Source: Nannobrachium achirus (taxonomy: Eukaryota > Chordata > Actinopteri > Myctophiformes > Myctophidae). From it: DNA of 64,000 nt. How positions within the stretch are numbered: position 1 is the stretch's first letter; each line of letters opens with the position of its first letter. Both the position numbers and the translations under genes were made by a program. Shown piece after piece: positions 1 to 64,000 of this stretch. The DNA lies in the NCBI GenBank assembly GCA_963921795.1, contig OY997653.1, positions 26,017,273 to 26,081,272 on the forward strand. The letters are read 5' to 3'. The notes under the pieces were generated by a model, which was not told where the DNA came from, did no database searches, and worked only from the letters and a program-made list of their open reading frames with translations.

Positions 1-94
1 GATCTACACTGTGGTGGAAACTACTCTGTCAGTGTTGTAGCTTTTGAAAGAGGTTGTCACAGTGAACCAATTTCACCTGTGGAACTGAAAACAG
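1..94 (+). CDS. Exon 1, FnIII domain B (5'-truncated by window edge)
   Basis: Only the last 31 codons are present, starting at D56. Tail is B3-like (H75, P81) but the following intron is B2-like. It uniquely has Ile at 79 (SEPIS). Donor ACAG|GTGAGA. Confidence 0.85.
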
Positions 95-3000
95 GTGAGA
101 AGATGTCACCAACTATTCTGTAATGCTGCATTTAACATGTTAGGTTTAATCATGATCTTTTCAGGAAGATTTGTTTAGAATGAAGGGTTTCAAATCTAGG
201 TTGGCCTAAGTGACTTGATTGCTAAATAAATAAACATATTATATTAGAACATTCGGCTAAAAGACAAATTAATTCTCTAAAAGTGTGTCATTAATCCTTT
301 CACATTTAATTTAATTCCCCGAATATAGGCTAATATAACATGTCAACATTGTGTTTTACCTTTGTCTCTTGCCAGCTCCATGTGCCCCAGAGAACGTTGG
401 TGCCAGTCTGGCGTGTCCCAACTCGGCCCATGTGACCTGGGTAGGAAGCTCCAGTGCCACAGCTTACAATGTGACAGCAGTGGGTCAGGATGGACACATA
501 CATGACTGCTACACCAACAGTACCAGCTGTCAGATACCCAACATGCCCTGTGGCCAGAACTATACCATCACAGTGACACCATATGCTGACTCCTGTGCTG
601 GGAATCCTAGCATTCCTCATCACTTCATTGGAGGTAAACAGAGGGAACAACACTTACAATCGTCTCCAACAGACTACTTTGATCAGACAAGGATTAGTTC
701 ATTTTATGTTTCACTTAATCAGTTGAAGCAAAAAAAATGTAAAAGAATAATGTTGTTTTCTCCACTTGTTCTCTCCATCTCTCCAGGTCCCTGCTCCCCC
801 AGTAATGTTTCTGTTTCTACAGAATGTGGGGCAAGCACAGTGTCCTGGTCCCCCGTTTCAGGAGCAGAAACCTACATAGCAACAGCAAAAGCACAAGATG
901 GACACATCCACACCTGTAACTCAAGCTCTGCACACTCCTGTTCTTTCACTGATCTACACTGTGGTGGAAACTATTCTGTCAGTGTTGTAGCTTTTGAAAG
1001 AGGTTGTCACAGTGAACCAAGTTCACTTGTGGAACTTAAAACAGGTGAGAGGATTTCACCAAATATTCTGTATGCTGCCTTTAACATGTTAGGTTTAATC
1101 ATGATATGTTCAGGAAGATTTGTTTAGAATGAAGGGTTTCAAATCTAGGTTGGCATATTAGTGACTGCTAAATAAATAAATAAATGCATGTTATATTAGA
1201 AAATTCGGCTAAAAGACAAATTAAGTCTCGAAAAGTGTGCCAGTTATCCTTTCGTATTTCATTTCATTCCCTGAATATAGGCTAATATAACATGTCAACA
1301 TTGTGTTTTAACGTTGTCTCTTGCCAGCTCCATGTGCCCCAGAGAACGTTGGTGCCAGTCTGGCGTGTACCAAATCAGCCGATGTGACCTGGGTAGGAAG
1401 CTCCAGTGCCACAGCTTACAATGTGACAGCAGTGGGTCAGGATGGACACATACATGACTGCTACACCAACAGTACCAGCTGTCAGATACCCAACATGCCC
1501 TGTGGACAAAACTATATCATCACAGTGACACCATATGCTGACTCCTGTGCTGGGAATCCCAGCATTCCTCATCACTTCATTGGAGGTACACAGAGAGAAC
1601 AAGACTTACAATCTAAAAGCCATGTACTAATCTGAACTCTCTCCAACAGACTTTGGTCAGACAAAGATGAGCTCATTTTACGTTTCATTTAATCAGTTGA
1701 AGCAATACATTAAAAAGAATAACGTTGTTTTCTCTCCACGTGTTACCTCCATCTCTCCAGGTCCCTGCTCCCCCAGTAATGTTTCTGTTTCTACAGAATG
1801 TGGGGCTAGTACAGTGTCCTGGTCCCCTGTTTCAGGAGCAGAAACATACATAGCAACAGCAAAAGCACATGATGGACACAACCACACCTGTAACTCAAGC
1901 TCTGCACACTCCTGCTCTTTCACTGATCTACACTGTGGTGGAAACTACTCTGTCAGTGTTGTAGCTTTTGAAAGAGGTTGTGACAGTGAACCAAGTTCAC
2001 CTGTGGAACTGAAAACAGGTGAGAAGATGTCACCAACTATTCTGTAATGCTGCCTTTAACATGTTAGGTTTAATCATGATCTTTTCAGGAAGATTTGTTT
2101 AGAATGAAGGGTTTCAAATCTAGGTTGGCCTAAGTGACTTGATTGCTAAATAAATAAACATATTATATTAGAACATTCGGCTAAAAGACAAATTCATTCT
2201 CTAAAAGTGTGTAATTTATCCTTTCACGTTTAATTTAATTCCCTGAATATAGGCTAATATAACATGTCAACATTGTGTTTTACCGTTGTCTCTTGCCAGC
2301 TCCATGTGCCCCAGAGAACGTTGGTGCCAGTCTGGCATGTCCAAACTCGGCCCATGTGACCTGGGTAGGAAGCTCCAGTGCCACAGCTTACAATGTGACA
2401 GCAGTGGGTCAGGATGGACACATACATGAGTGCTACACCAACAGTACCAGCTGTCAGATACCCAACATGTACTGTGGCCAGAACTATACCATCACAGTGA
2501 CACCATATGCTGACTCCTGTGCTGGGAATCCCAGCATTCCTCATCACTTCATTGGTACACAGATAGAACAAGACTTAAAGATCTAAATGCTCCGTACTAC
2601 TAAACTGAATTGTCTCCAACAGACTACTTTGATCAGACAAGGATTAGTTCATTTTATGTTTCACTTAATCAGTTGAAGCAAAAAAAATGTAAAAGAATAA
2701 TGTTGTTTTCTCTCCACTTGTTCTCTCCATCTCTCCAGGTCCCTGCTCCCCCAGTAATGTTTCTGTTTCTACAGAATGTGGGGCAAGCACAGTGTCCTGG
2801 TCCCCCGTTTCAGGAGCAGAAACCTACATAGCAACAGCAAAAGCACATGATGGACACAACCACACCTGTCACTCAAGCTCTGCACACTCCTGCTCTTTCA
2901 CTGATCTACACTGTGGTGGAAACTATTCTGTCAGTGTTGTAGCTTTTGAAAGAGGTTGTCACAGTGAACCAAGTTCACCTGTGGAATTGAAAACAGGTGA

Positions 3001-6000
3001 GAAAATCTGTAATGCTGCCTTTAACATGTTAGGTTTAATCATGATCTTTTCATGAAGATTTGATTGGAATGAAGGTTTTAAAATCTAGGTTGCTAAATAA
3101 ACCAGTAAGACTCCCTAATCGGGAGATAAGCGACCGTCAGGTCGCAGCGTGATTTTAGGGCAAAATGTGTAGGAGCAGTGTCCAAAAATGTGGTTGAAAA
3201 AAATCGGCCTGATGGTGGCGCTGAGTGTAGACATAGTGTGTACCGATTTGTGTGATTTTAGGGCAAAATCTGTAGGAGCAGTGTCCAAAAATGTGTTTGA
3301 GAAAATCGGCCTGAAGGTGGCGCTATATGGGAGAGATCCATGTTGATGACATGAGTGTAGACATACTGTGTAGCGATTTGCGTGATTTTAGGGCAAAAAT
3401 TGTAGGAGCAGTGTCCAAAAATGTGTTTTAAAAAATCGGCCTGAAGGTGGCGCTATATGGGACAGATCCATGTTGATGACATGAGTGTAGACATACTGTG
3501 TACCGATTTGAGTGATTTTAGGACACAAATTGTAGGAGCAGTGTCCAAAAATGTGTTTTGCAAGAATCCGCCACATGGTGGCGCTAGAAGAGGGCCATGT
3601 GAGAAATGAGGGGTGGGGTCTCCGCGCCGCCGAGGCGGACGAATAGGTACCGGCCCCGGCTCTCCCGGTCGCTCCTAGCCCGAGTTACGGCATTTTATGT
3701 GCGCTGCAGTGGCAGGGGGTCCTCCACTGGGGGCGCCACCACTTTTGCATCTGTTCTGGAGCACCAGGAGTCGGTGGTCCCCGGGAATTCCCCGTGAGCA
3801 GCCCCGTTGGGGTGGTCATTTGGTCATTTTTGCACATTTGGTCATTTTTTACATCTGGGGGTCCCCCAGGGACCTGGGGGTCCCTGGAGCTCCGGGGGTC
3901 CTTGGAGGTTGTAGTTTGGCAGGCAATGAGTGTGTGTGAAAAATCTGGCATGGATCGGGGCAACGGTTGCGGAGATATGAGCAGGGCAAAAGTGTGACAT
4001 GTGACGTGTGACAGACAGACTGACTGACGGACGGACTCACAGTTTGTGGAGGTTTTGATAGTAACTGCGACCTGACGGTCGCAATAAACATGTTATGTTA
4101 GAACATTCGGCTGAAAGACAACTTAAGTCTCTAAAACTTTGTCATTTATCCTTTCGTGTTTCATTTAATTCCCTGAATATAGGCTAATATAACATGTCAA
4201 CATTGTGTTTTAACTCTGTCTCTTGCCAGCTCCATGTGCCCCAGAGAACGTTGGTGCCAGTCTGGCGTGTCCCAACTCAGCCAATGTATCCTGGGTAGAA
4301 AGCTCCAGTGCCACAGCTTACAATGTGACAGCAGTGGGTCAGGATGGACACATACATGACTGCTACACCAACAGTACCAGCTGTCAGATACCCAACATGC
4401 CCTGTGGCCAGAACTATACCATCACAGTGACACCATATGCTGACTCCTGTGCTGGGAATCCTAGCATTCCTCATCACTTCATTGGAGGTAAACAGAGGGA
4501 ACAACACTTACAATCTAAAAGCTATGTCCTAATCTGAATTGTCTCCAACAGACTACCTTGATCAGACAAAGATTAGCTCATTTTATATTTCATTTAATCA
4601 GTTGAAGCAAAAAATTAAAAAGAATAACCTTGTTTTCTCTCCACTTGTTCTCTCTATCTCTCCAGGTCCCTGCTCCCCCAGTAATGTTTCTGTTTCTACA
4701 GAATGTGGGGCTAGCACAGTGTCCTGGTCCCCCGTTTCAGGAGCAGAAACCTACATAGCAACAGCAAAAGCACAAGATGGACACATCCACACCTGTAACT
4801 CAAGCTCTGCACACTCCTGTTCTTTCACTGATCTACACTGTGGTGGAAACTACTCTGTCAGTGTTGTAGCTTTTGAAAGAGGTTGTCACAGTGAACCAAG
4901 TTCACTTGTGGAACTTAAAACAGGTGAGAGGATTTCACCAAATATTCTGTATGCTGCCTTTATTAACATGTTAGGTTTAATCATCATGATATGTTCAGGA
5001 AGATTTGTTTAGAATGAAGGGTTTCAAATCTAGGTTGGCATATTAGTGACTTGATTGCTAAATAAATAAATAAATGCATGTTATATTAGAAAATTCGGCT
5101 AAAAGACAAATTAAGTCTCGAAAAGTGTGCCAGTTATCCTTTCGTATTTCATTTCATTCCCTGAATATAGGCTAATATAACATGTCAACATTGTGTTTTA
5201 ACGTTGTCTCTTGCCAGCTCCATGTGCCCCAGAGAACGTTGGTGCCAGTCTGGCGTGTACCAAATCAGCCGATGTGACCTGGGTAGGAAGCTCCAGTGCC
5301 ACAGCTTACAATGTGACAGCAGTGGGTCAGGATGGACACATACATGACTGCTACACCAACAGTACCAGCTGTCAGATACCCAACATGCCCTGTGGACAAA
5401 ACTATATCATCACAGTGACACCATATGCTGACTCCTGTGCTGGGAATCCCAGCATTCCTCATCACTTCATTGGAGGTACACAGAGAGAACAAGACTTACA
5501 ATCTAAAAGCCATGTACTAATCTGAACTCTCCCAACAGACTTTGGTCAGACAAAGATGAGCTCATTTTACGTTTCATTTAATCAGTTGAAGCAATACATT
5601 AAAAAGAATAACGTTGTTTTCTCTCCACGTGTTACCTCCATCTCTCCAGGTCCCTGCTCCCCCAGTAATGTTTCTGTTTCTACAGAATGTGGGGCTAGTA
5701 CAGTGTCCTGGTCCCCTGTTTCAGGAGCAGAAACATACATAGCAACAGCAAAAGCACATGATGGACACAACCACACCTGTAACTCAAGCTCTGCACACTC
5801 CTGCTCTTTCACTGATCTACACTGTGGTGGAAACTACTCTGTCAGTGTTGTAGCTTTTGAAAGAGGTTGTGACAGTGAACCAAGTTCACCTGTGGAACTG
5901 AAAACGGGTGAGAAGATGTCACCAACTATTCTGTAATGCTGCCTTTAACATGTTAGGTTTAATCATGATCTTTTCAGGAAGATTTGTTTAGAATGAAGGG

Positions 6001-12000: not shown

Positions 12001-15000
12001 GGCGTGTACCAAATCAGCCGATGTGACCTGGGTAGGAAGCTCCAGTGCCACAGCTTACAATGTGACAGCAGTGGGTCAGGATGGACACATACATGACTGC
12101 TACACCAACAGTACCAGCTGTCAGATACCCAACATGCCCTGTGGACAAAACTATATCATCACAGTGACACCATATGCTGACTCCTGTGCTGGGAATCCCA
12201 GCATTCCTCATCACTTCATTGGAGGTACACAGAGAGAACAAGACTTACAATCTAAAAGCCATGTACTAATCTGAACTCTCTCCAACAGACTTTGGTCAGA
12301 CAAAGATGAGCTCATTTTACGTTTCATTTAATCAGTTGAAGCAATACATTAAAAAGAATAACGTTGTTTTCTCTCCACGTGTTACCTCCATCTCTCCAGG
12401 TCCCTGCTCCCCCAGTAATGTTTCTGTTTCTACAGAATGTGGGGCAAGCACAGTGTCCTGGTCCCCCGTTTCAGGAGCAGAAACCTACATAGCAACAGCA
12501 AAAGCACATGATGGACACAACCACACCTGTCACTCAAGCTCTGCACACTCCTGCTCTTTCACTGATCTACACTGTGGTGGAAACTATTCTGTCAGTGTTG
12601 TAGCTTTTGAAAGAGGTTGTCACAGTGAACCAAGTTCACCTGTGGAATTGAAAACAGGTGAGAAAATCTGTAATGCTGCCTTTAACATGTTAGATTTAAT
12701 CATGACCTTTTCACGAAGATTTGATTGGAATGAAGGTTTTAAAATCTAGGTTGCTAAATAAATAAACATGTTATGTTAGAACATTCGGCTGAAAGACAAC
12801 TTAAGTCTCTAAAACTTTGTCATTTATCCTTTCGTGTTTCATTTAATTCCCTGAATATAGGCTAATATAACATGTCAACATTGTGTTTTAACTCTGTCTC
12901 TTGCCAGCTCCATGTGCCCCAGAGAACGTTGGTGCCAGTCTGGCGTGTCCCAACTCAGCCAATGTATCCTGGGTAGGAAGCTCCAGTGCCACAGCTTACA
13001 ATGTGACAGCAGTGGGTCAGGATGGACACATACATGACTGCTACACCAACAGTACCAGCTGTCAGATACCCAACATGCCCTGTGGCCAGAACTATACCAT
13101 CACAGTGACACCATATGCTGACTCCTGTGCTGGGAATCCTGGCATTCCTCATCACTTCATTGGAGGTAAACAGAGGGAACAACACTTACAATCTAAAAGC
13201 TATGTCCTAATCTGAATTGTCTCCAACAGACTACATTGATCAGACAAAGATTAGCTCATTTTATATTTCATTTAATCAGTTGAAGCAAAAAATTAAAAAC
13301 AATAACCTTGTTTTCTCTCCACTTGTTCTCTCCATCCCTCCAGGTCCCTGCTCCCCCAGTAATGTTTCTGTTTCTACAGAATGTGGGGCTAGCACAGTGT
13401 CCTGGTCCCCTGTTTCAGGAGCAGAAACCTACATAGCAACAGCAAAAGCACAAGATGGACACATCCACACCTGTAACTCAAGCTCTGCACACTCCTGTTC
13501 TTTCACTGATCTACACTGTGGTGGAAACTACTCTGTCAGTGTTGTAGCTTTTGAAAGAGGTTGTCACAGTGAACCAAGTTCACTTGTGGAACTTAAAACA
13601 GGTGAGAGGATTTCACCAAATATTCTGTATGCTGCCTTTAACATGTTAGGTTTAATCATGATATGTTCAGGAAGATTTGTTTAGAATGAAGGGTTTCAAA
13701 TCTAGGTTGGCATATTAGTGACTTGATTGCTAAATAAATAAATAAATGCATGTTATATTAGAAAATGTGCCAGTTATCCTTTCGTATTTAATTTAATTCC
13801 CTGAATATAGGCTAATATAACATGTCAACATTGTGTTTTACCGTTGTCTCTTGCCAGCTCCATGTGCCCCAGAGAACGTTGGTGCCAGTCTGGCGTGTAC
13901 CAAATCAGCCGATGTGACCTGGGTAGGAAGCTCCAGTGCCACAGCTTACAATGTGACAGCAGTGGGTCAGGATGGACACATACATGACTGCTACACCAAC
14001 AGTACCAGCTGTCAGATACCCAACATGCCCTGTGGACAAAACTATATCATCACAGTGACACCATATGCTGACTCCTGTGCTGGGAATCCCAGCATTCCTC
14101 ATCACTTCATTGGAGGTACACAGAGAGAACAAGACTTACAATCTAAAAGCCATGTACTAATCTGAACTCTCCCAACGGACTTTGGTCAGACAAAGATGAG
14201 CTCATTTTACGTTTCATTTAATCAGTTGAAGCAATACATTAAAAAGAATAACGTTGTTTTCTCTCCACGTGTTACCTCCATCTCTCCAGGTCCCTGCTCC
14301 CCCAGTAATGTTTCTGTTTCTACAGAATGTGGGGCTAGTACAGTGTCCTGGTCCCCTGTTTCAGGAGCAGAAACATACATAGCAACAGCAAAAGCACATG
14401 ATGGACACAACCACACCTGTCACTCAAGCTCTGCACACTCCTGCTCTTTCACTGATCTACACTGTGGTGGAAACTATTCTGTCAGTGTTGTAGCTTTTGA
14501 AAGAGGTTGTCACAGTGAACCAAGTTCACCTGTGGAATTGAAAACAGGTGAGAAAATCTGTAATGCTGCCTTTAACATGTTAGGTTTAATCATGACCTTT
14601 TCACGAAGATTTGATTGGAATGAAGGTTTTAAAATCTAGGTTGCTAAATAAATAAACATGTTATGTTATGTTAGAACATTCGGCTGAAAGACAACTTAAG
14701 TCTCTAAAACTTTGTCATTTATCCTTTCGTGTTTCATTTAATTCCCTGAATATAGGCTAATATAACATGTCAACATTGTCTTTTAACTCTGTCTCTTGCC
14801 AGCTCCATGTGCCCCAGAGAACGTTGGTGCCAGTCTGGCGTGTCCCAACTCAGCCAATGTATCCTGGGTAGGAAGCTCCAGTGCCACAGCTTACAATGTG
14901 ACAGCAGTGAGTCAGGATGGACACATACATGACTGCTACACCAACAGTACCAGCTGTCAGATACCCAACATGCCCTGTGGCCAGAACTATACCATCACAG

Positions 15001-18000
15001 TGACACCATATGCTGACTCCTGTGCTGGGAATCCTAGCATTCCTCATCACTTCATTGGAGGTAAACAGAGGGAAAAACACTTACAATCTAAAAGCTATGT
15101 CCTAATCTGAATTGTCTCCAACAGACTACCTTGATCAGACAAAGATTAGCTCATTTTATATTTCATTTAATCAGTTGAAGCAAAAAATTAAAAAGAATAA
15201 CCTTGTTTTCTCTCCACTTGTTCTCTCCATCTCTCCAGGTCCCTGCTCCCCCAGTAATGTTTCTGTTTCTACAGAATGTGGGGCTAGCACAGTGTCCTGG
15301 TCCCCCGTTTCAGGAGCAGAAACCTACATAGCAACAGCAAAAGCACAAGATGGACACATCCACACCTGTAACTCAAGCTCTGCAAACTCCTGTTCTTTCA
15401 CTGATCTACATTGTGGTGGAAACTACTCTGTCAGTGTTGTAGCTTTTGAAAGAGGTTGTCAAAGTGAACCAAGTTCACTTGTGGAACTTAAAACAGGTGA
15501 GAGGATTTCACCAAATATTCTGTATGCTGCCTTTAACATGTTAGGTTTAATCATGATATGTTCAGGAAGATTTCTTTAGAATGAAGGGTTTCAAATCTAG
15601 GTTGGCATATTAGTGACTTGATTGCTAAATAAATAAATAAATGCATGTTATATTAGAAAATTCGGCTAAAAGACAAATTAAGTCTCGAAAAGTGTGCCGG
15701 TTATCCTTTCGTATTTCATTTCATTCCCTGAATATAGGCTAATATAACATGTCAACATTGTGTTTTAACGTTGTCTCTTGCCAGCTCCATGTGCCCCAGA
15801 GGACGTTGGTGCCAGTCTGGCGTGTACCAAATCAGCCGATGTGACCTGGGTAGGAAGCTCCAGTGCCACAGCTTACAATGTGACAGCAGTGGGTCAGGAT
15901 GGACACATACATGACTGCTACACCAACAGTACCAGCTGTCAGATACCCAACATGCCCTGTGGACAAAACTATATCATCACAGTGACACCATATGCTGACT
16001 CCTGTGCTGGGAATCCCAGCATTCCTCATCACTTCATTGGAGGTACACAGAGAGAACAAGACTTACAATCTAAAAGCCATGTACTAATCTGAACTCTCTC
16101 CAACAGACTTTGGTCAGACAAAGATGAGCTCATTTTACGTTTCATTTAATCAGTTGAAGCAATACATTAAAAAGAATAACGTTGTTTTCTCTCCACGTGT
16201 TACCTCCATCTCTCCAGGTCCCTGCTCCCCCAGTAATGTTTCTGTTTCTACAGAATGTGGGGCAAGCACAGTGTCCTGGTCCCCCGTTTCAGGAGCAGAA
16301 ACCTACATAGCAACAGCAAAAGCAGATGATGGACACAACCACACCTGTCACTCAAGCTCTGCACACTCCTGCTCTTTCACTGATCTACACTGTGGTGGAA
16401 ACTACTCTGTCAGTGTTGTAGCTTTTGAAAGAGGTTGTCACAGTGAACCAAGTTCACCTGTGGAATTGAAAACAGGTGAGAAAATCTGTAATGCTGCCTT
16501 TAACATGTTAGGTTTAATCATGACCTTTTCACGAAGATTTGATTGGAATGAAGGTTTTAAAATCTAGGTTGCTAAATAAATAAACATGTTATGTTAGAAC
16601 ATTCGGCTGAAAGACAACTTAAGTCTCTAAAACTTTGTCATTTATCCTTTCGTGTTTCATTTAATTCCCTGAATATAGGCTAATATAACATGTCAACATT
16701 GTGTTTTAACTCTGTCTCTTGCCAGCTCCATGTGCCCCAGAGAACGTTGGTGCCAGTCTGGCGTGTCCCAACTCAGCCAATGTATCCTGGGTAGGAAGCT
16801 CCAGTGCCACAGCTTACAATGTGACAGCAGTGGGTCAGGATGGAGACATACATGACTGCTACACCAACAGTACCAGCTGTCAGATACCCAACATGCCCTG
16901 TGGACAAAACTATATCATCACAGTGACACCATATGCTGACTCCTGTGCTGGGAATCCCAGCATTCCTCATCACTTCATTGGAGGTACACAGAGAGAACAA
17001 GACTTACAATCTAAAAGCCATGTACTAATCTGAACTCTCCCAACGGACTTTGGTCAGACAAAGATGAGCTCATTTTACGTTTCATTTAATCAGTTGAAGC
17101 AATACATTAAAAAGAATAACGTTGTTTTCTCTCCACGTGTTACCTCCATCTCTCCAGGTCCCTGCTCCCCCAGTAATGTTTCTGTTTCTACAGAATGTGG
17201 GGCTAGTACAGTGTCCTGGTCCCCTGTTTCAGGAGCAGAAACATACATAGCAACAGCAAAAGCACATGATGGACACAACCACACCTGTAACTCAAGCTCT
17301 GCACACTCCTGCTCTTTCACTGATCTACACTGTGGTGGAAACTACTCTGTCAGTGTTGTAGCTTTTGAAAGAGGTTGTCACAGTGAACCAAGTTCACCTG
17401 TGGAATTGAAAACAGGTGAGAAAATCTGTAATGCTGCCTTTAACATGTTAGGTTTAATCATGATCTTTTCATGAAGATTTGATTGGAATGAAGGTTTTAC
17501 AATCTAGTTTGCTAAATAAATAAACATGTTATGTTAGAACATTCGGCTGAAAGACAACTTAAGTCTCTAAAACTTTGTCATTTATCCTTTCGTGTTTCAT
17601 TTAATTCCCTGAATATAGGCTAATATAACATGTCAACATTGTGTTTTAACTCTGTCTCTTGCCAGCTCCATGTGCCCCAGAGAACGTTGGTGCCAGTCTG
17701 GCGTGTCCCAACTCAGCCAATGTATCCTGGGTAGGAAGCTCCAGTGCCACAGCTTACAATGTGACAGCAGTGGGTCAGGATGGAGACATACATGACTGCT
17801 ACACCAACAGTACCAGCTGTCAGATACCCAACATGCCCTGTGGCCAGAACTATACCATCACAGTGACACCATATGCTGACTCCTGTGCTGGGAATCCTAG
17901 CATTCCTCATCACTTCATTGGAGGTAAACAGAGGGAACAACACTTACAATCTAAAAGCTATGTCCTAATCTGAATTGTCTCCAACAGACTACCTTGATCA

Positions 18001-63000: not shown

Positions 63001-64000
63001 TGGGAATCCTAGCATTCCTCATCACTTCATTGGAGGTAAACAGAGGGAACAACACTTACAATCTAAAAGCTATGTCCTAATCTGAATTGTCTCCAACAGA
63101 CTACATTGATCAGACAAAGATTAGCTCATTTTATATTTCATTTAATCAGTTGAAGCAAAAAATTAAAAAGAATAACCTTGTTTTCTCTCCACTTGTTCTC
63201 TCCATCTCTCCAGGTCCCTGCTCCCCCAGTAATGTTTCTGTTTCTACAGAATGTGGGGCTAGCACAGTGTCCTGGTCCCCCGTTTCAGGAGCAGAAACCT
63301 ACATAGCAACAGCAAAAGCACAAGATGGACACATCCACACCTGTAACTCAAGCTCTGCACACTCCTGTTCTTTCACTGATCTACACTGTGGTGGAAACTA
63401 CTCTGTCAGTGTTGTAGCTTTTGAAAGAGGTTGTCAAAGTGAACCAAGTTCACTTGTGGAACTTAAAACAGGTGAGAGGATTTCACCAAATATTCTGTAT
63501 GCTGCCTTTAACATGTTAGGTTTAATCATGATATGTTCAGGAAGATTTGTTTAGAATGAAGGGTTTCAAATCTAGGTTGGCATATTAGTGACTTGATTGC
63601 TAAATAAATAAATAAATAAATGCATGTTATATTAGAAAATTCGGCTAAAAGACAAATTAAGTCTCGAAAAGTGTGCTGGCTATCCTTTCGTATTTCATTT
63701 CATTCCCTGAATATAGGCTAATATAACATGTCAACATTGTGTTTTAACGTTGTCTCTTGCCAGCTCCATGTGCCCCAGAGAACGTTGGTGCCAGTCTGGC
63801 GTGTACCAAATCAGCCGATGTGACCTGGGTAGGAAGCTCCAGTGCCACAGCTTACAATGTGACAGCAGTGGGTCAGGATGGACACATACATGACTGCTAC
63901 ACCAACAGTACCAGCTGTCAGATACCCAACATGCCCTGTGGACAAAACTATATCATCACAGTGACACCATATGCTGACTCCTGTGCTGGGAATCCCAGCA
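1..64000 (+). CDS. fndc7-like: Interior of giant FNDC7-like gene: 132 tandem FnIII exons (both ends outside window)
   Basis: One open multi-exon gene is read on the plus strand; individual exons are listed separately. Each exon encodes one whole FnIII domain of 86 residues (85 in class A3). Visible domain marks are Trp at 21-22 (strand B), Tyr at 30-31 (strand C) and the N-Y-(T/S/I) strand-F motif at 62-64. Each domain also has cysteines near 3, 14, 44-45, 52, 59 and 74. Such cysteine-rich FnIII domains in tandem resemble fibronectin type III domain-containing protein 7, judged from memory of the family and not by a search. All introns are GT-AG and phase 1, so exons splice in frame in any combination. 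Three to four N-X-S/T sequons per domain point to a secreted or cell-surface protein. No signal peptide, membrane segment, start or stop is in the window. Several adjacent genes are possible, but no terminal exon is seen. Confidence 0.8.
376..633 (+). CDS. Exon 2, FnIII domain A (A3 head/A1 tail chimera)
   Basis: H19 and T21 as in A3, but D44, P58 and the GGAG|GTAAAC donor as in A1. The downstream intron is open in frame into exon 3. Confidence 0.9.
787..1044 (+). CDS. Exon 3, FnIII domain B1
   Basis: Q37, I41, N45, H50, H75, L81. Acceptor CTCTCCAG. The exon uses GCAAGC at A16-S17 as B3 copies do, so its 5' part may derive from B3. Confidence 0.9.
1328..1585 (+). CDS. Exon 4, FnIII domain A2
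   Basis: T15-K16-S-A-D19 and N-Y-I at 62-64, so the strand-F sequon is lost. Acceptor TTGCCAG, donor GGAG|GTACAC. Confidence 0.92.
1761..2018 (+). CDS. Exon 5, FnIII domain B2
   Basis: H37, N41, N45 (sequon kept), D75, P81. Acceptor ATCTCTCCAG, donor ACAG|GTGAGA. Confidence 0.92.
2300..2554 (+). CDS. Exon 6, FnIII domain A3
   Basis: H19, E44 and Y58. The exon is 255 nt because GAG before the donor is missing (ATTG|GTACAC), leaving one Gly in the linker to the next domain. Confidence 0.92.
2739..2996 (+). CDS. Exon 7, FnIII domain B3
   Basis: H37, N41, H45 (sequon lost), H75, P81. Its downstream intron holds the 981-bp insertion. Confidence 0.92.
3111..3125. repeat. Small hairpin at left end of insertion
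   Basis: CTCCC and GGGAG arms flank a five-base loop, just outside the left inverted repeat. Confidence 0.5.
3130..3147 (+). repeat. Left inverted repeat of insertion
   Basis: Perfect reverse complement of 4065-4082. It is also an internal hairpin: GCGACC, loop GTCA, GGTCGC. Confidence 0.85.
3149..3586 (+). repeat. Minisatellite within insertion, about 3.5 units of 130 bp
   Basis: Units start at 3149, 3252, 3382 and 3512, each opening with GTGATTTTAGG and carrying TGTAGGAGCAGTGTCC. The first unit lacks 27 bp that the second and third have, and the last stops after GGTGGCGCTA. Confidence 0.85.
3855..3905. repeat. GC-rich fold-back tract in insertion
   Basis: CTGGGGG and CCCCCAG arms (3855-3869) are followed by further GGGGGTCC/GGACC elements able to pair with each other. 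No gene is supported in 3600-4064. That stretch also contains repeated GGTCATTT motifs near 3813-3848 and GAC-rich short repeats at 3993-4040. Confidence 0.6.
4065..4082 (-). repeat. Right inverted repeat of insertion
   Basis: Reverse complement of 3130-3147. It forms the hairpin GCGACC, loop TGAC, GGTCGC, and borders the resumed intron at AATAAACATG. Confidence 0.85.
4230..4487 (+). CDS. Exon 8, FnIII domain A1
   Basis: N19-V-S sequon, G24E (WVESSS). This variant recurs only in exons 82, 94 and 106. Donor GGAG|GTAAAC. Confidence 0.92.
4666..4923 (+). CDS. Exon 9, FnIII domain B1
   Basis: Q37, I41, N45, H50, H75, L81. The next intron has small ATT and ATC triplet duplications near 4961-4986. 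Confidence 0.92.
5218..5475 (+). CDS. Exon 10, FnIII domain A2
   Basis: Same protein as exon 4. First exon of the eight-exon, 3.85-kb block. Confidence 0.92.
5650..5907 (+). CDS. Exon 11, FnIII domain B2
   Basis: D75, P81. T86 is encoded by ACG (silent change before the donor), shared with exon 19. Confidence 0.92.
6189..6443 (+). CDS. Exon 12, FnIII domain A3
   Basis: H19, E44, Y58; 255 nt with ATTG|GTACAC donor. Confidence 0.92.
6630..6887 (+). CDS. Exon 13, FnIII domain B3
   Basis: H45, H75, P81. The preceding intron has a lengthened A run near 6570. Confidence 0.92.
7138..7395 (+). CDS. Exon 14, FnIII domain A1
   Basis: N19-V-S, G24, N62-Y-T; the consensus A1 form with four sequons. 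Confidence 0.92.
7574..7831 (+). CDS. Exon 15, FnIII domain B1
   Basis: H50N (SANS) and Q75, a paired variant recurring in many B1 copies. Confidence 0.92.
8120..8377 (+). CDS. Exon 16, FnIII domain A2
   Basis: T15-K16, D19, N-Y-I 62-64. The following intron has CCCAACGG instead of the usual CTCCAACAG. Confidence 0.92.
8552..8809 (+). CDS. Exon 17, FnIII domain B (B3 body/B1 tail chimera)
   Basis: H37, N41, H45, H75 as B3 but L81 and a GAGAGGATTTC donor flank as B1. The upstream intron is B2-type. Three classes join within about 400 bp. Confidence 0.9.
9066..9323 (+). CDS. Exon 18, FnIII domain A2
   Basis: A2 protein. The upstream intron has the 32-bp deletion and an A3-like TTTACCGTTG acceptor context. 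Confidence 0.92.
9498..9755 (+). CDS. Exon 19, FnIII domain B2
   Basis: D75, P81; ACG at T86 as in exon 11. Confidence 0.92.
10037..10291 (+). CDS. Exon 20, FnIII domain A3
   Basis: H19, E44, Y58; 255 nt. Confidence 0.92.
10477..10734 (+). CDS. Exon 21, FnIII domain B3
   Basis: H45, H75, P81. The downstream intron has AAGATG where most copies have AACATG, shared with exon 13. Confidence 0.92.
10985..11242 (+). CDS. Exon 22, FnIII domain A1
   Basis: Consensus A1, four sequons, same as exon 14. Confidence 0.92.
11421..11678 (+). CDS. Exon 23, FnIII domain B1
   Basis: N50 and Q75 variant, same as exon 15. Confidence 0.92.
11967..12224 (+). CDS. Exon 24, FnIII domain A2
   Basis: A2 with H41. 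The 11.4-kb duplication alignment begins inside this exon, just after the H41/D41 difference at 12086. Confidence 0.92.
12400..12657 (+). CDS. Exon 25, FnIII domain B3 behind a B2 intron
   Basis: H45, H75, P81. The upstream intron is B2-type, marking loss of an A3-B pair by unequal exchange. The downstream intron has TTAGATTT as in exons 49 and 97. Confidence 0.92.
12908..13165 (+). CDS. Exon 26, FnIII domain A1
   Basis: S79G variant (NPGIP), shared with exon 50. Confidence 0.92.
13344..13601 (+). CDS. Exon 27, FnIII domain B1
   Basis: H50, H75, L81. Acceptor tract reads ATCCCTCCAG here and in exon 51 only. Confidence 0.92.
13858..14115 (+). CDS. Exon 28, FnIII domain A2
   Basis: A2 protein with the 32-bp-deleted upstream intron. 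Confidence 0.92.
14290..14547 (+). CDS. Exon 29, FnIII domain B (B2 head/B3 tail chimera)
   Basis: B2 silent markers (GCTAGT, CCTGTT, ACATAC) up to residue 30, then H45 and H75 of B3. The crossover lies inside the exon. The next intron has an extra TTATG copy near 14662. Confidence 0.92.
14803..15060 (+). CDS. Exon 30, FnIII domain A1
   Basis: G37S (VSQDG); TTGTCTTTTAA in the upstream intron. Confidence 0.92.
15239..15496 (+). CDS. Exon 31, FnIII domain B1
   Basis: N50, Q75. CAT at H58 is a silent marker shared with exons 41, 45, 55, 65 and 69. Confidence 0.92.
15785..16042 (+). CDS. Exon 32, FnIII domain A2
   Basis: N7D (PEDVG) variant. Confidence 0.92.
16218..16475 (+). CDS. Exon 33, FnIII domain B3 behind a B2 intron
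   Basis: H37D (KADDGH); H45, H75, P81. Confidence 0.92.
16726..16983 (+). CDS. Exon 34, FnIII domain A (A1 head/A2 tail chimera)
   Basis: N19-V-S of A1, H41D (DGDIH), then N-Y-I and GTACAC donor of A2. A B1-A2 pair is missing after it. Confidence 0.92.
17158..17415 (+). CDS. Exon 35, FnIII domain B (B2 head/B3 tail chimera)
   Basis: N45 as B2, H75 and the B3 donor flank GAGAAAATC. Confidence 0.92.
17666..17923 (+). CDS. Exon 36, FnIII domain A1
   Basis: H41D with the full A1 tail (N-Y-T, GTAAAC donor). Confidence 0.92.
18102..18359 (+). CDS. Exon 37, FnIII domain B1
   Basis: H50, H75, L81. Confidence 0.92.
18616..18873 (+). CDS. Exon 38, FnIII domain A2
   Basis: A2 protein with the 32-bp-deleted upstream intron. 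Confidence 0.92.
19048..19305 (+). CDS. Exon 39, FnIII domain B3 behind a B2 intron
   Basis: H45, H75, P81 encoded by CCC (silent). Confidence 0.92.
19556..19813 (+). CDS. Exon 40, FnIII domain A1
   Basis: G37S and N77K (GKPS), a pair shared only with exon 64. Confidence 0.92.
19992..20249 (+). CDS. Exon 41, FnIII domain B1
   Basis: N50, Q75, CAT at H58. Confidence 0.92.
20538..20795 (+). CDS. Exon 42, FnIII domain A2
   Basis: N7D. Confidence 0.92.
20970..21227 (+). CDS. Exon 43, FnIII domain B3 behind a B2 intron
   Basis: H45, H75, P81. Downstream intron has TAATAATGCC, absent from its duplicate at exon 67. Confidence 0.92.
21478..21735 (+). CDS. Exon 44, FnIII domain A1
   Basis: G37S. 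Confidence 0.92.
21914..22171 (+). CDS. Exon 45, FnIII domain B1
   Basis: N50, Q75, CAT at H58. Confidence 0.92.
22460..22717 (+). CDS. Exon 46, FnIII domain A2
   Basis: N7D. The following intron has TTTAATTTAATC in place of TTTCATTTAATC. Confidence 0.92.
22893..23150 (+). CDS. Exon 47, FnIII domain B3 behind a B2 intron
   Basis: H37D; H45, H75, P81. Confidence 0.92.
23401..23658 (+). CDS. Exon 48, FnIII domain A (A1 head/A2 tail chimera)
   Basis: A13E (LEC), H41D, N-Y-I tail; duplicate is exon 72. Confidence 0.92.
23834..24091 (+). CDS. Exon 49, FnIII domain B3 behind a B2 intron
   Basis: H45, H75, P81. The downstream intron has AACACGTTAGATTT. Confidence 0.92.
24342..24599 (+). CDS. Exon 50, FnIII domain A1
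   Basis: S79G; duplicate of exon 26. Confidence 0.92.
24778..25035 (+). CDS. Exon 51, FnIII domain B1
   Basis: H50, H75; ATCCCTCCAG acceptor as in exon 27. Confidence 0.92.
25292..25549 (+). CDS. Exon 52, FnIII domain A2
   Basis: Duplicate of exon 28, with the 32-bp-deleted upstream intron. Confidence 0.92.
25724..25981 (+). CDS. Exon 53, FnIII domain B (B2 head/B3 tail chimera)
   Basis: Same crossover as exon 29, including the extra TTATG downstream near 26096. Confidence 0.92.
26237..26494 (+). CDS. Exon 54, FnIII domain A1
   Basis: G37S; duplicate of exon 30. Confidence 0.92.
26673..26930 (+). CDS. Exon 55, FnIII domain B1
   Basis: N50, Q75. Donor reads GTGAGG rather than GTGAGA, still a good donor. 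Confidence 0.92.
27219..27476 (+). CDS. Exon 56, FnIII domain A2
   Basis: N7D; duplicate of exon 32. Confidence 0.92.
27652..27909 (+). CDS. Exon 57, FnIII domain B3 behind a B2 intron
   Basis: H37D; duplicate of exon 33. Confidence 0.92.
28160..28417 (+). CDS. Exon 58, FnIII domain A (A1 head/A2 tail chimera)
   Basis: H41D, N-Y-I; duplicate of exon 34. Confidence 0.92.
28592..28849 (+). CDS. Exon 59, FnIII domain B (B2 head/B3 tail chimera)
   Basis: N45, H75; duplicate of exon 35. Confidence 0.92.
29100..29357 (+). CDS. Exon 60, FnIII domain A1
   Basis: H41D, N-Y-T; duplicate of exon 36. Confidence 0.92.
29536..29793 (+). CDS. Exon 61, FnIII domain B1
   Basis: H50, H75; duplicate of exon 37. 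Confidence 0.92.
30050..30307 (+). CDS. Exon 62, FnIII domain A2
   Basis: Duplicate of exon 38. The following intron has GAACACTCCC against GAACTCTCCC in copy 1. Confidence 0.92.
30482..30739 (+). CDS. Exon 63, FnIII domain B3 behind a B2 intron
   Basis: CCC at P81, as in exon 39. Confidence 0.92.
30990..31247 (+). CDS. Exon 64, FnIII domain A1
   Basis: G37S and N77K; duplicate of exon 40. Confidence 0.92.
31426..31683 (+). CDS. Exon 65, FnIII domain B1
   Basis: N50, Q75, CAT at H58. Confidence 0.92.
31972..32229 (+). CDS. Exon 66, FnIII domain A2
   Basis: N7D; duplicate of exon 42. Confidence 0.92.
32404..32661 (+). CDS. Exon 67, FnIII domain B3 behind a B2 intron
   Basis: H45, H75, P81. 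Acceptor tract is ATTTCTCCAG, a single-base difference from exon 43. Confidence 0.92.
32912..33169 (+). CDS. Exon 68, FnIII domain A1
   Basis: G37S; duplicate of exon 44. Confidence 0.92.
33348..33605 (+). CDS. Exon 69, FnIII domain B1
   Basis: N50, Q75, CAT at H58. Confidence 0.92.
33894..34151 (+). CDS. Exon 70, FnIII domain A2
   Basis: N7D; following intron has TTTAATTTAATC as after exon 46. Confidence 0.92.
34327..34584 (+). CDS. Exon 71, FnIII domain B3 behind a B2 intron
   Basis: H37D; duplicate of exon 47. Confidence 0.92.
34835..35092 (+). CDS. Exon 72, FnIII domain A (A1 head/A2 tail chimera)
   Basis: A13E, H41D, N-Y-I; duplicate of exon 48. Confidence 0.92.
35268..35525 (+). CDS. 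Exon 73, FnIII domain B2
   Basis: N45, D75. Silent CCT at P5 and CTA at L84, both shared with exons 91 and 103. Confidence 0.92.
35807..36061 (+). CDS. Exon 74, FnIII domain A3
   Basis: H19, E44, Y58; 255 nt. Confidence 0.92.
36246..36503 (+). CDS. Exon 75, FnIII domain B3
   Basis: H45, H75, P81. Confidence 0.92.
36754..37011 (+). CDS. Exon 76, FnIII domain A (A2 head/A1 tail chimera)
   Basis: T15-K16, D19 of A2 then N-Y-T and GTAAAC donor of A1: the reciprocal of the exon 34 chimera. Confidence 0.92.
37190..37447 (+). CDS. Exon 77, FnIII domain B1
   Basis: H50, H75, L81. The downstream intron has the ATC triplet duplication as after exon 9. Confidence 0.92.
37739..37996 (+). CDS. Exon 78, FnIII domain A2
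   Basis: Consensus A2 protein. Confidence 0.92.
38171..38428 (+). CDS. Exon 79, FnIII domain B2
   Basis: D75, P81; unique silent ACT at T12. Confidence 0.92.
38710..38964 (+). CDS. Exon 80, FnIII domain A3
   Basis: A13E on an A3 body. The same change occurs in A1/A2 chimeras 48 and 72: recurrent mutation or conversion. Confidence 0.92.
39150..39407 (+). CDS. Exon 81, FnIII domain B3
   Basis: H45, H75, P81. The next intron lacks one A in the TAAATAAAC stretch. Confidence 0.92.
39657..39914 (+). CDS. Exon 82, FnIII domain A1
   Basis: G24E plus unique A71I (PYIDSC), a two-base change next to C74. Confidence 0.92.
40093..40350 (+). CDS. Exon 83, FnIII domain B1
   Basis: N50, Q75. Confidence 0.92.
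40639..40896 (+). CDS. Exon 84, FnIII domain A2
   Basis: N7 retained; consensus A2. Confidence 0.92.
41072..41329 (+). CDS. Exon 85, FnIII domain B3 behind a B2 intron
   Basis: H45, H75, P81. Confidence 0.92.
41580..41837 (+). CDS. Exon 86, FnIII domain A1
   Basis: S79G; silent CCT at P55, shared with exon 98. Confidence 0.92.
42016..42273 (+). CDS. Exon 87, FnIII domain B1
   Basis: H50 combined with Q75, a recombinant of the two common B1 forms. Confidence 0.92.
42562..42819 (+). CDS. Exon 88, FnIII domain A2
   Basis: N7D. Confidence 0.92.
42995..43252 (+). CDS. Exon 89, FnIII domain B3 behind a B2 intron
   Basis: H37D. Confidence 0.92.
43503..43760 (+). CDS. Exon 90, FnIII domain A (A1 head/A2 tail chimera)
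   Basis: H41D, N-Y-I. Confidence 0.92.
43936..44193 (+). CDS. Exon 91, FnIII domain B2
   Basis: D75; CCT at P5 and CTA at L84 as in exon 73. Confidence 0.92.
44475..44729 (+). CDS. Exon 92, FnIII domain A3
   Basis: H19, E44, Y58; 255 nt. Confidence 0.92.
44914..45171 (+). CDS. Exon 93, FnIII domain B3
   Basis: H45, H75, P81. Confidence 0.92.
45422..45679 (+). CDS. Exon 94, FnIII domain A1
   Basis: G24E; A71 retained, unlike exon 82. Confidence 0.92.
45858..46115 (+). CDS. Exon 95, FnIII domain B1
   Basis: N50, Q75. Upstream intron has CTACCTTTATC, shared with exon 107. Confidence 0.92.
46404..46661 (+). CDS. Exon 96, FnIII domain A2
   Basis: Consensus A2. Confidence 0.92.
46837..47094 (+). 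CDS. Exon 97, FnIII domain B3 behind a B2 intron
   Basis: H45, H75, P81; TTAGATTT downstream as after exon 25. Confidence 0.92.
47345..47602 (+). CDS. Exon 98, FnIII domain A1
   Basis: S79G; CCT at P55. Confidence 0.92.
47781..48038 (+). CDS. Exon 99, FnIII domain B1
   Basis: H50, H75, where the counterpart exon 87 has Q75. Confidence 0.92.
48327..48584 (+). CDS. Exon 100, FnIII domain A2
   Basis: N7D. Confidence 0.92.
48760..49017 (+). CDS. Exon 101, FnIII domain B3 behind a B2 intron
   Basis: H37D. Confidence 0.92.
49268..49525 (+). CDS. Exon 102, FnIII domain A (A1 head/A2 tail chimera)
   Basis: H41D, N-Y-I. Confidence 0.92.
49701..49958 (+). CDS. Exon 103, FnIII domain B2
   Basis: D75; CCT at P5, CTA at L84. 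Confidence 0.92.
50240..50494 (+). CDS. Exon 104, FnIII domain A3
   Basis: H19, E44, Y58; 255 nt. Confidence 0.92.
50679..50936 (+). CDS. Exon 105, FnIII domain B3
   Basis: H45, H75, P81. Confidence 0.92.
51187..51444 (+). CDS. Exon 106, FnIII domain A1
   Basis: G24E; opens the partial third copy of the 5,765-bp block. Confidence 0.92.
51623..51880 (+). CDS. Exon 107, FnIII domain B1
   Basis: N50, Q75. Confidence 0.92.
52169..52426 (+). CDS. Exon 108, FnIII domain A2
   Basis: Consensus A2; last exon matching the 5,765-bp block. Confidence 0.92.
52602..52859 (+). CDS. Exon 109, FnIII domain B2
   Basis: D75, P81. Upstream intron reads CCATGTGTTACC, a variant shared with exons 123 and 127. 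Confidence 0.92.
53141..53398 (+). CDS. Exon 110, FnIII domain A1 directly after B2
   Basis: S79G. The upstream intron joins B2-type left sequence to an A1-type acceptor, so an A3-B3 pair is missing here. Confidence 0.92.
53577..53834 (+). CDS. Exon 111, FnIII domain B1
   Basis: H50, Q75. Confidence 0.92.
54123..54380 (+). CDS. Exon 112, FnIII domain A2
   Basis: A2 protein. Donor is GTAGAC instead of GTACAC, the only such case. Confidence 0.9.
54556..54813 (+). CDS. Exon 113, FnIII domain B2
   Basis: D75, P81. Confidence 0.92.
55095..55349 (+). CDS. Exon 114, FnIII domain A3
   Basis: 255 nt; acceptor context TTATCTCTTGCCAG shared with exons 120 and 124. Confidence 0.92.
55534..55791 (+). 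CDS. Exon 115, FnIII domain B3
   Basis: S6T (sequon N7 kept) and H58N next to C59; shared with exons 121 and 125. Confidence 0.92.
56041..56298 (+). CDS. Exon 116, FnIII domain A1
   Basis: S79G; the upstream intron lacks one T in the GTGTTTAACT tract. Confidence 0.92.
56477..56734 (+). CDS. Exon 117, FnIII domain B1
   Basis: H50, Q75. Confidence 0.92.
57023..57280 (+). CDS. Exon 118, FnIII domain A2
   Basis: Consensus A2, with the normal GTACAC donor. Confidence 0.92.
57456..57713 (+). CDS. Exon 119, FnIII domain B2
   Basis: Unique V19A (STASW) just before the core Trp; D75. Confidence 0.92.
57995..58249 (+). CDS. Exon 120, FnIII domain A3
   Basis: 255 nt; H19, E44, Y58. Confidence 0.92.
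58434..58691 (+). CDS. Exon 121, FnIII domain B3
   Basis: T6, N58 variant. Confidence 0.92.
58941..59198 (+). CDS. Exon 122, FnIII domain A (A1 body/A2 donor chimera)
   Basis: A1 protein with S79G and N-Y-T, but the donor flank switches to A2 type (GTACAC) within 40 bp. The B1-A2 pair is deleted. Confidence 0.92.
59374..59631 (+). CDS. Exon 123, FnIII domain B2
   Basis: D75, P81. Confidence 0.92.
59913..60167 (+). CDS. Exon 124, FnIII domain A3
   Basis: 255 nt; H19, E44, Y58. Confidence 0.92.
60352..60609 (+). CDS. Exon 125, FnIII domain B3
   Basis: T6, N58 variant. Confidence 0.92.
60859..61116 (+). CDS. Exon 126, FnIII domain A (A1 body/A2 donor chimera)
   Basis: Duplicate of exon 122. 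Confidence 0.92.
61292..61549 (+). CDS. Exon 127, FnIII domain B2
   Basis: D75, P81. Confidence 0.92.
61831..62085 (+). CDS. Exon 128, FnIII domain A3
   Basis: 255 nt; normal TTGTCTCTTGCCAG acceptor. Confidence 0.92.
62270..62527 (+). CDS. Exon 129, FnIII domain B3
   Basis: Unique A27V (SGVETY); S6 and H58 as in other B3 copies. Confidence 0.92.
62778..63035 (+). CDS. Exon 130, FnIII domain A1
   Basis: Consensus A1 with S79 and four sequons. Confidence 0.92.
63214..63471 (+). CDS. Exon 131, FnIII domain B1
   Basis: H50, Q75, L81. Confidence 0.92.
63601..63621 (+). repeat. (TAAA)5 microsatellite in B-to-A intron
   Basis: Longest form of the (TAAA)n stretch that sits in every B-to-A intron. 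Other B1-type introns have four units, and B2/B3-type introns have two to three. Confidence 0.8.
63764..64000 (+). CDS. Exon 132, FnIII domain A2 (3'-truncated by window edge)
   Basis: T15-K16, D19, N-Y-I 62-64; the window ends before the donor. Confidence 0.88.

Follow-up and report, generated by a model that had tools for sequence, protein, structure and literature searches.

A giant FnIII exon array in Nannobrachium achirus as the probable stalk of a group-F-like adhesion GPCR

Introduction

ADGRF1 (GPR110) is an adhesion G-protein-coupled receptor (GPCR) whose extracellular part comprises only a SEA and a GAIN domain, and VLGR1 (ADGRV1), an adhesion GPCR with a giant repeat ectodomain, has about 6,300 residues. 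Uromodulin carries a ZP polymer module, and titin has FnIII domains in a number of the same order as the array described here. Receptors of the adhesion class are held to act by transmitting force from a large N-terminus to a tethered agonist, and VLGR1b is known as the largest of them, the relevance of its size being left open (PMC11810715). The class has an H-X-S/T cleavage motif, which according to PMC13062082 does not by itself ensure cleavage. Tandem repeats that are coding and consist of near-identical cysteine-rich units are exemplified by kringle IV-2 of human LPA, with 5.6 kb per unit and 1-40 units (PMC11462820). Of the genes named for FnIII domains, fndc7a and fndc7rs4 are expressed by support cells of zebrafish neuromasts (PMC6363392), and the mouse cochlea shows enrichment of Fndc7 in its supporting cells (PMC5137903).

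Here we describe a stretch of 64,000 nucleotides from the 1.66-Gb genome of Nannobrachium achirus (C16:26017273-26081272, contig OY997653.1), hereafter the window, which quite probably falls entirely within a single gene for a giant adhesion GPCR of the ADGRF (group VI) kind. On our best reading of the sequence, the gene would encode a group-F-like adhesion GPCR at least 22,700 residues long. The locus is like ADGRF1 in its GAIN-GPS-7TM part and the exon preceding that part, which align, and unlike ADGRF1 in having an EGF exon, about 254 FnIII exons and a D8C head upstream on the same strand. With VLGR1 it would share the receptor class and the giant repeat ectodomain; the two differ in subfamily, in length and in their repeats, which in VLGR1 are calcium exchanger beta motifs. 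An EGF-D8C exon is common to this locus and to uromodulin and GP2, and tandem FnIII domains are a likeness to FNDC7 and zebrafish fndc7rs that their names suggest. The growth habit appears to be that of LPA kringle IV-2, whereas the unit here is about 0.95 kb and encodes two domains, and there are at least three times as many domains. The titin-scale comparison made in a preliminary description of the window holds for domain count and no further: unlike those of titin, the domains here are cysteine-rich, occupy one exon each and lie behind a signal-peptide-like exon.

Results

The preliminary description had claimed 132 consecutive FnIII exons in the window, all phase 1, encoding about 11,280 residues without a stop or frameshift. 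Searching with a hidden Markov model (HMM) built from two seed domains, we found exactly 132, of which 130 are complete, all on the + strand (Table 1). Every intron is phase 1, with AG at 131/131 acceptors and GT at 131/131 donors, and the spliced array of 33,838 nt encodes 11,279 residues with 0 stops, the other two frames containing 418 and 570. The domains are cysteine-rich, as had been stated, with six cysteines at positions fixed per type in 130/130 complete domains (788 cysteines in total), and the 407 N-glycosylation sequons predicted from the sequence agree with the glycosylated, extracellular type that had been proposed. A giant unbroken extracellular-type FnIII array is borne out, with no gene boundary inside the window; that neither gene end is in view there is likewise correct, the array's first exon beginning just 164 bases to the left.

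Table 1. Features of the locus in window-based coordinates, where 0 is the base before base 1 and the C16 position is the coordinate plus 26,017,272.
Feature	Position	Strand	Remarks
Signal-peptide-like exon	-5613..-5550	+	heuristic scan
EGF-D8C exon	-3999..-3235	+	Pfam; second possible donor 9 bases further
T/P (Thr/Pro) exon	-1630..-1580	+	phase 1
First FnIII exon	-163..94	+	HMM
Array's first FnIII exon, last 94 bases, B type	1..94	+	exon start 164 bases before window
132 FnIII exons (130 complete), A-B alternation, phase 1	1..64000	+	roughly first half of the putative receptor's FnIII stalk
Sole long window intron, 1,233 bases, with inserted element	2997..4229	+	inverted repeats
24-exon block, first copy	12200..23846	+	offset 11,434, 7 differences
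24-exon block, second copy	23634..35280	+	offset 11,434, 7 differences
Exon 132, A type, cut at window end	63764..64000	+	array carries on rightwards
A/B array rightward	to 119,639	+	HMM
Five-exon units	from 119,773; last complete exon read ends near 128,173	+	
EGF exon	146,240-146,344	+	phase 1-1
SEA-like exon	152,797-152,988	+	phase 1-1
GAIN1 exon	153,099-153,277	+	phase 1-0
GAIN2 exon	154,276-154,449	+	phase 0-0
GAIN-GPS-7TM exon, 1,452 bases	155,171-156,622	+	

Single domains passed the Pfam fn3 model (29.3 and 31.1 bits, cutoff 25), and the structures predicted for an A domain (pLDDT 84) and a B domain (pLDDT 77) had best PDB matches mostly titled FN3 domains or monobodies. Matches in the libraries used included neither a model nor a sequence of FNDC7. 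The two exon types alternate strictly in the window, giving 65 pairs. Among the 130 complete exons there are 36 distinct sequences and 26 distinct proteins, and 67 of the 131 introns are distinct. Several genes within the window were considered and rejected: 130 of the 131 introns are no longer than 294 bases, the sole long one containing an inserted element, and the 129 aligned introns make just two families with maximum distances of 0.16 and 0.12.

The copies of the FnIII array evolve as coding sequence. Indel alleles number 1 (3 bp, in frame) in 516 exon columns versus 31 in 455 intron columns (p = 1e-9), and variable columns 50/516 versus 111/455 (p = 9e-10), the intron figures coming from 129/131 introns with the 1,233-base intron and the first intron omitted. 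Synonymous changes make up 22/52 substitution alleles where 25.7% was expected (p = 0.007), and A and B exons have pairwise pN/pS values of 0.56 and 0.31, with intron p-distances of 0.078 and 0.064; as the array copies are related by descent, these tests do not count independent events.

We examined 100 kb on each side of the window, part of which reads N. The preliminary description was right that the array is giant and put its extent too low: followed beyond the window, the readable FnIII exons total 254, the last being cut by a stretch reading N and the final 20 belonging to a different, five-exon unit. An apparently broken FnIII exon at 120,294 proved to be a truncated HMM match with its donor intact. 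Leftward, the HMM found no further FnIII in the next 98 kb beyond the first FnIII exon.

A search of the flanks for signal-peptide and terminal exons, which the preliminary description had suggested, yielded candidates on both sides. Upstream and in phase lies a signal-peptide-like exon, MDSSLILSLCFFCLVQTIQPS, with a phase-1 donor at its end; it was chosen among 7 candidates of a heuristic scan and is common, with one change, to a neighbouring locus (copy L; the present locus is copy R). The EGF-D8C exon matched D8C_UMOD at 2.5e-28 when Pfam was applied to chosen open exons and frames, and its nearest solved structure is uromodulin (9.7e-42), with GP2 at 2.4e-24. Joined to the array, the 5' exons give 22,009 aa with 0 stops, a sum in which one intact exon is not included.

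Downstream, on the same strand and in compatible phases, are EGF, SEA-like, GAIN, GPS and seven-helix exons. GPS (1e-16) and 7tm_2 (5.2e-30) matches from Pfam fall within one exon and one frame, and 700 stop-free aa from the 3' exons align as a single segment with positions 204-830 of ADGRF1 chain 7wxu_R (E = 8e-95). The four best PDB matches of this 3' end are ADGRF1 constructs (best 8e-95), followed by ADGRL3 at 1.3e-32. The string HLTSFSILMSPF, comprising the cleavage site and tethered agonist, is identical in the 3' receptor end and ADGRF1, and the motif at the predicted GPS cleavage site is HLT, of the H-X-S/T type. The joined exons align through the ADGRF1 GAIN region, where a separate Pfam GAIN match is absent; the SEA-like exon aligns to ADGRF1 from position 204, and three homologous SEA-like exons gave 0 Pfam SEA matches. 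The receptor end was traced through the GAIN-GPS-7TM exon, beyond which the rest of the last helix and the tail would lie.

Between array and EGF exon, copy R contains the stretch reading N and, at about 136.8k-142.3k, a retroelement that encodes a reverse transcriptase domain (8.3e-24) and weakly matches an integrase SAM-like model below the cutoff (0.0011), so the junction is deduced from copy L and two other loci. Between array and EGF, T/P exons are present in copy L, and none was found in the readable sequence of copy R. A block of about 600 bases conserved after the array between L and a locus on C21 was tried as a terminal exon and rejected, having stops in all six frames. The frame before the EGF exon (146150-146239) in R and L, MKHMLIMNAIMCLCCSA, could mimic a signal peptide; by eye, no MKHMLIMNAIMCLCCSA-like hydrophobic start was seen before the EGF acceptor at C21 and at C16:29.49M.

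In copy L, the D8C lies at C16:25,761,472, FnIII matches run from 25,765,875 to 25,918,758 and the 7TM is at 25,930,538, all on the + strand. The D8C exons of L and R are 91% identical. The tails of the two copies are 99.2% alike over 8.86 kb, so L is not an independent case. The C21 locus has FnIII exons, three T/P exons, EGF, SEA-like, GAIN and 7TM, the last 80% identical to that of R, and a minus-strand locus at C16:29.49M matches this order, with a single clear T/P exon ahead of EGF and a 7TM 83% identical to R. Splice sites and phases agree in three loci for the EGF, SEA-like, GAIN1 and 7TM exons, and in two for GAIN2. A locus at C16:29.60M also has FnIII matches upstream of a 7TM.

Merging 21 matches by eye gave 15 ADGRF-like 7TM loci, eight of which lie within C16:25.93-26.42M. 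Among the best 150 of about 1,440 candidate FnIII matches, same-strand matches occur within 30 kb upstream at at least 5 of the 15 loci, and a sixth, at 31.1M, has two about 84 kb upstream. A D8C (E <= 1e-10) is near just two of the five array-plus-7TM loci, R and L. FnIII matches of the same kind also lie on contigs C1, C2, C4, C5, C14 and C18, where an ADGRF 7TM was not found, so such arrays are not tied to the receptor. Between L and R, at about -65.4k to -61.2k (C16:25.954M), sits a further ADGRF-like receptor gene, whose 7TM is about 71% identical.

The AB units of the window measure 940-988 bases, with a mean identity of 95.3% among 64 of the 65 (the insert-bearing unit being omitted). 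Adjacent units are least similar (93.5%), none of the 63 adjacent pairs exceeding 99.5%; over lags 1-32, lags of 2, 6, 7 and 12 account for 37 of the 79 pairs above that value. At a 4% cut-off there are three unit types, type 1 being followed by type 3 in 22/22 cases. The 24-exon block of 11.6 kb repeats with differences that are all intronic in an ungapped comparison, and the longest exact repeat in the window is 3,423 bases. The array would grow and stay uniform through unequal crossing-over or conversion of AB units. Adding or removing units would leave the frame intact, all FnIII exons being phase 1-1, so stalk length should vary between individuals.

The element in the sole long window intron looks mobile, with 18-base inverted repeats (3130; 4065-4082) that flank a 130-bp tandem repeat. 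Viral contigs contained no exact match to a 52-base piece of the intron-7 insert, no relatives were confirmed in viral contigs or bacterial and archaeal genomes, and an NCBIfam search gave no match. Four introns of about 1.3 kb in the right flank (86255-87580, 92261-93602, 98282-99618 and 100423-101759) are 97.9-99.9% alike, which suggests that an insertion came first and was then copied together with its repeat unit. AATAAA or ATTAAA is present in 119 of the 131 window introns, against a mean of 54 in mononucleotide shuffles; a transcript crossing the whole array could form only if those signals were ignored.

Hints of fast change in head and neck come from uncorrected Nei-Gojobori estimates on overlapping data. 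Among eight pairs taken without intervals, dN exceeds dS in 5/5 for SEA-like and GAIN exons and is below it in 3/3 for the 7TM exon; with bootstrap intervals of dN-dS, one of eight pairs lies above zero, two lie below and five include zero. The SEA, GAIN1 and GAIN2 exons of R versus C16:29.49M gave dN 0.315 and dS 0.153 (interval 0.058 to 0.254), and in the other two SEA plus GAIN1 pairs the interval includes zero. For GPS plus 7TM, dN is below dS with an interval excluding zero in R versus C21, and not clearly so in R versus C16:29.49M (139 codons). The GAIN part of the GAIN-GPS-7TM exon is constrained in R versus C16:29.49M, and its interval includes zero in R versus C21. The EGF-D8C exons of R and L differ by 27 nonsynonymous and 3 synonymous changes (interval -0.002 to 0.053).

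Discussion

With a uromodulin-like EGF-D8C head on one side and an ADGRF1-like GAIN-GPS-7TM end on the other, the array most probably forms the stalk of an adhesion GPCR. The preliminary description recognised the giant array and missed both flanking parts, drawing its comparison with FNDC7 instead; an FNDC7-type secreted matrix protein of sensory organs was likewise a candidate of ours until the D8C and 7TM exons were found in the flanks. Order, strand, open frame, splice sites and compatible phases can be read directly from the DNA, as can the matching arrangement of 3' exons at two diverged loci, and from these we infer a single transcript spanning head, array and receptor, including the array-to-receptor splice. 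The protein would begin with a signal peptide, followed by the EGF/D8C head, a Thr/Pro linker, about 254 or more cysteine-rich, sequon-rich FnIII domains encoded for the most part by alternating A and B exons, a second Thr/Pro linker, EGF, SEA-like and GAIN domains, the GPS and seven helices. At the tip of the stalk the head would bind a partner, which may be mucus, a glycan, a microbe or a neighbouring cell. An FnIII domain is roughly 3.2 nm long, so 254 of them would form a very long tether of up to about 0.8 micrometre. The receptor is predicted to cut itself between the L and T of HLT, and pulling or shedding of the stalk fragment would bare the tethered agonist TSFSILMSPF and start G-protein signalling. 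By analogy with uromodulin, a D8C head on a long stalk at a mucosal surface would suit microbe or mucus binding, which is a guess.

It is unlikely that the locus comprises two neighbouring genes, one for a secreted giant D8C-FnIII protein whose transcript would stop after the array and then a separate ADGRF gene that would begin, at the EGF exon or ahead of it, with a signal peptide of its own. Such an arrangement would fit the same-kind FnIII matches on six contigs where the 7TM was not matched, the signal-peptide-like frame ahead of the EGF exon in R and L, and the retroelement and unread sequence separating array from receptor in R. Against it stand the two diverged loci, where array, T/P, EGF, SEA-like, GAIN and 7TM follow one another with phase-1 acceptors at EGF and where a hydrophobic start is lacking by eye; moreover, the T/P exons that follow the array end in donors and thus point to further exons, and the conserved block checked between array and EGF holds no open frame. 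A single real gene whose FnIII number was inflated by the assembly, through near-identical blocks that may be two haplotypes placed end to end, is quite improbable. The repeated 24-exon block with its 7 differences and the long exact repeat would fit two haplotypes, in which case the count may be overstated by 24, but about 230 FnIII exons would then remain, most units are distinguishable by their introns and mean identity, and the heads of L and R differ more than haplotypes would.

Also rather unlikely is that the locus is transcribed and the giant protein rarely or never made, with intronic poly(A) signals, exon skipping or internal starts yielding short products. The poly(A)-signal excess speaks for this, as does the harmlessness to frame of skipping phase 1-1 exons; the window introns are copies, however, so the excess reflects few independent events, and the coding constraint across copies and the 254 readable FnIII exons without a stop speak against this reading.

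Returning to the single giant receptor, it might exceed in size every other known animal GPCR, and perhaps every other known cell-surface receptor: a head on a length-variable stalk of 250 to 300 FnIII domains, in a small gene family whose head and SEA/GAIN-A exons may evolve rapidly alongside a homogenised stalk and a conserved GPS-7TM transducer, as would suit a receptor engaged at the body surface in self-recognition or an arms race. We offer this wider picture tentatively and hold it to be somewhat less than an even chance. If the reading is true, the receptor would be more than three times longer than VLGR1 and built from one repeated unit, and its frame-neutral unit number would provide a natural length series for relating stalk length to the mechanical activation of this receptor class.

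Taken singly, the receptor class, the D8C head and FnIII arrays are all known; their combination and its size were not met in the literature searched, where no title dealt with FnIII arrays in adhesion GPCRs, a weak test in which subscription journals are thinly covered. Annotation may split such loci into 'FNDC7-like' and 'ADGRF-like' genes, and the class may thereby be overlooked.

Further EGF-D8C and FnIII loci occur elsewhere in the genome. EGF-D8C (uromodulin-like) exons cluster at C2:16-21M and C8:5.99-6.12M, the best-covered ones being about 73-83% identical to the head exon. On the minus strand of C2:30.08-30.32M there are long runs of C-type FnIII with many score-identical matches about 1.95 kb apart, on a contig with no ADGRF 7TM match; these are perhaps further giant arrays of another gene. 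Two FnIII-rich loci at C22:15.82-15.91M and 30.21-30.28M, with open frames of 5,739 and 7,261 residues, are presumably titin genes.
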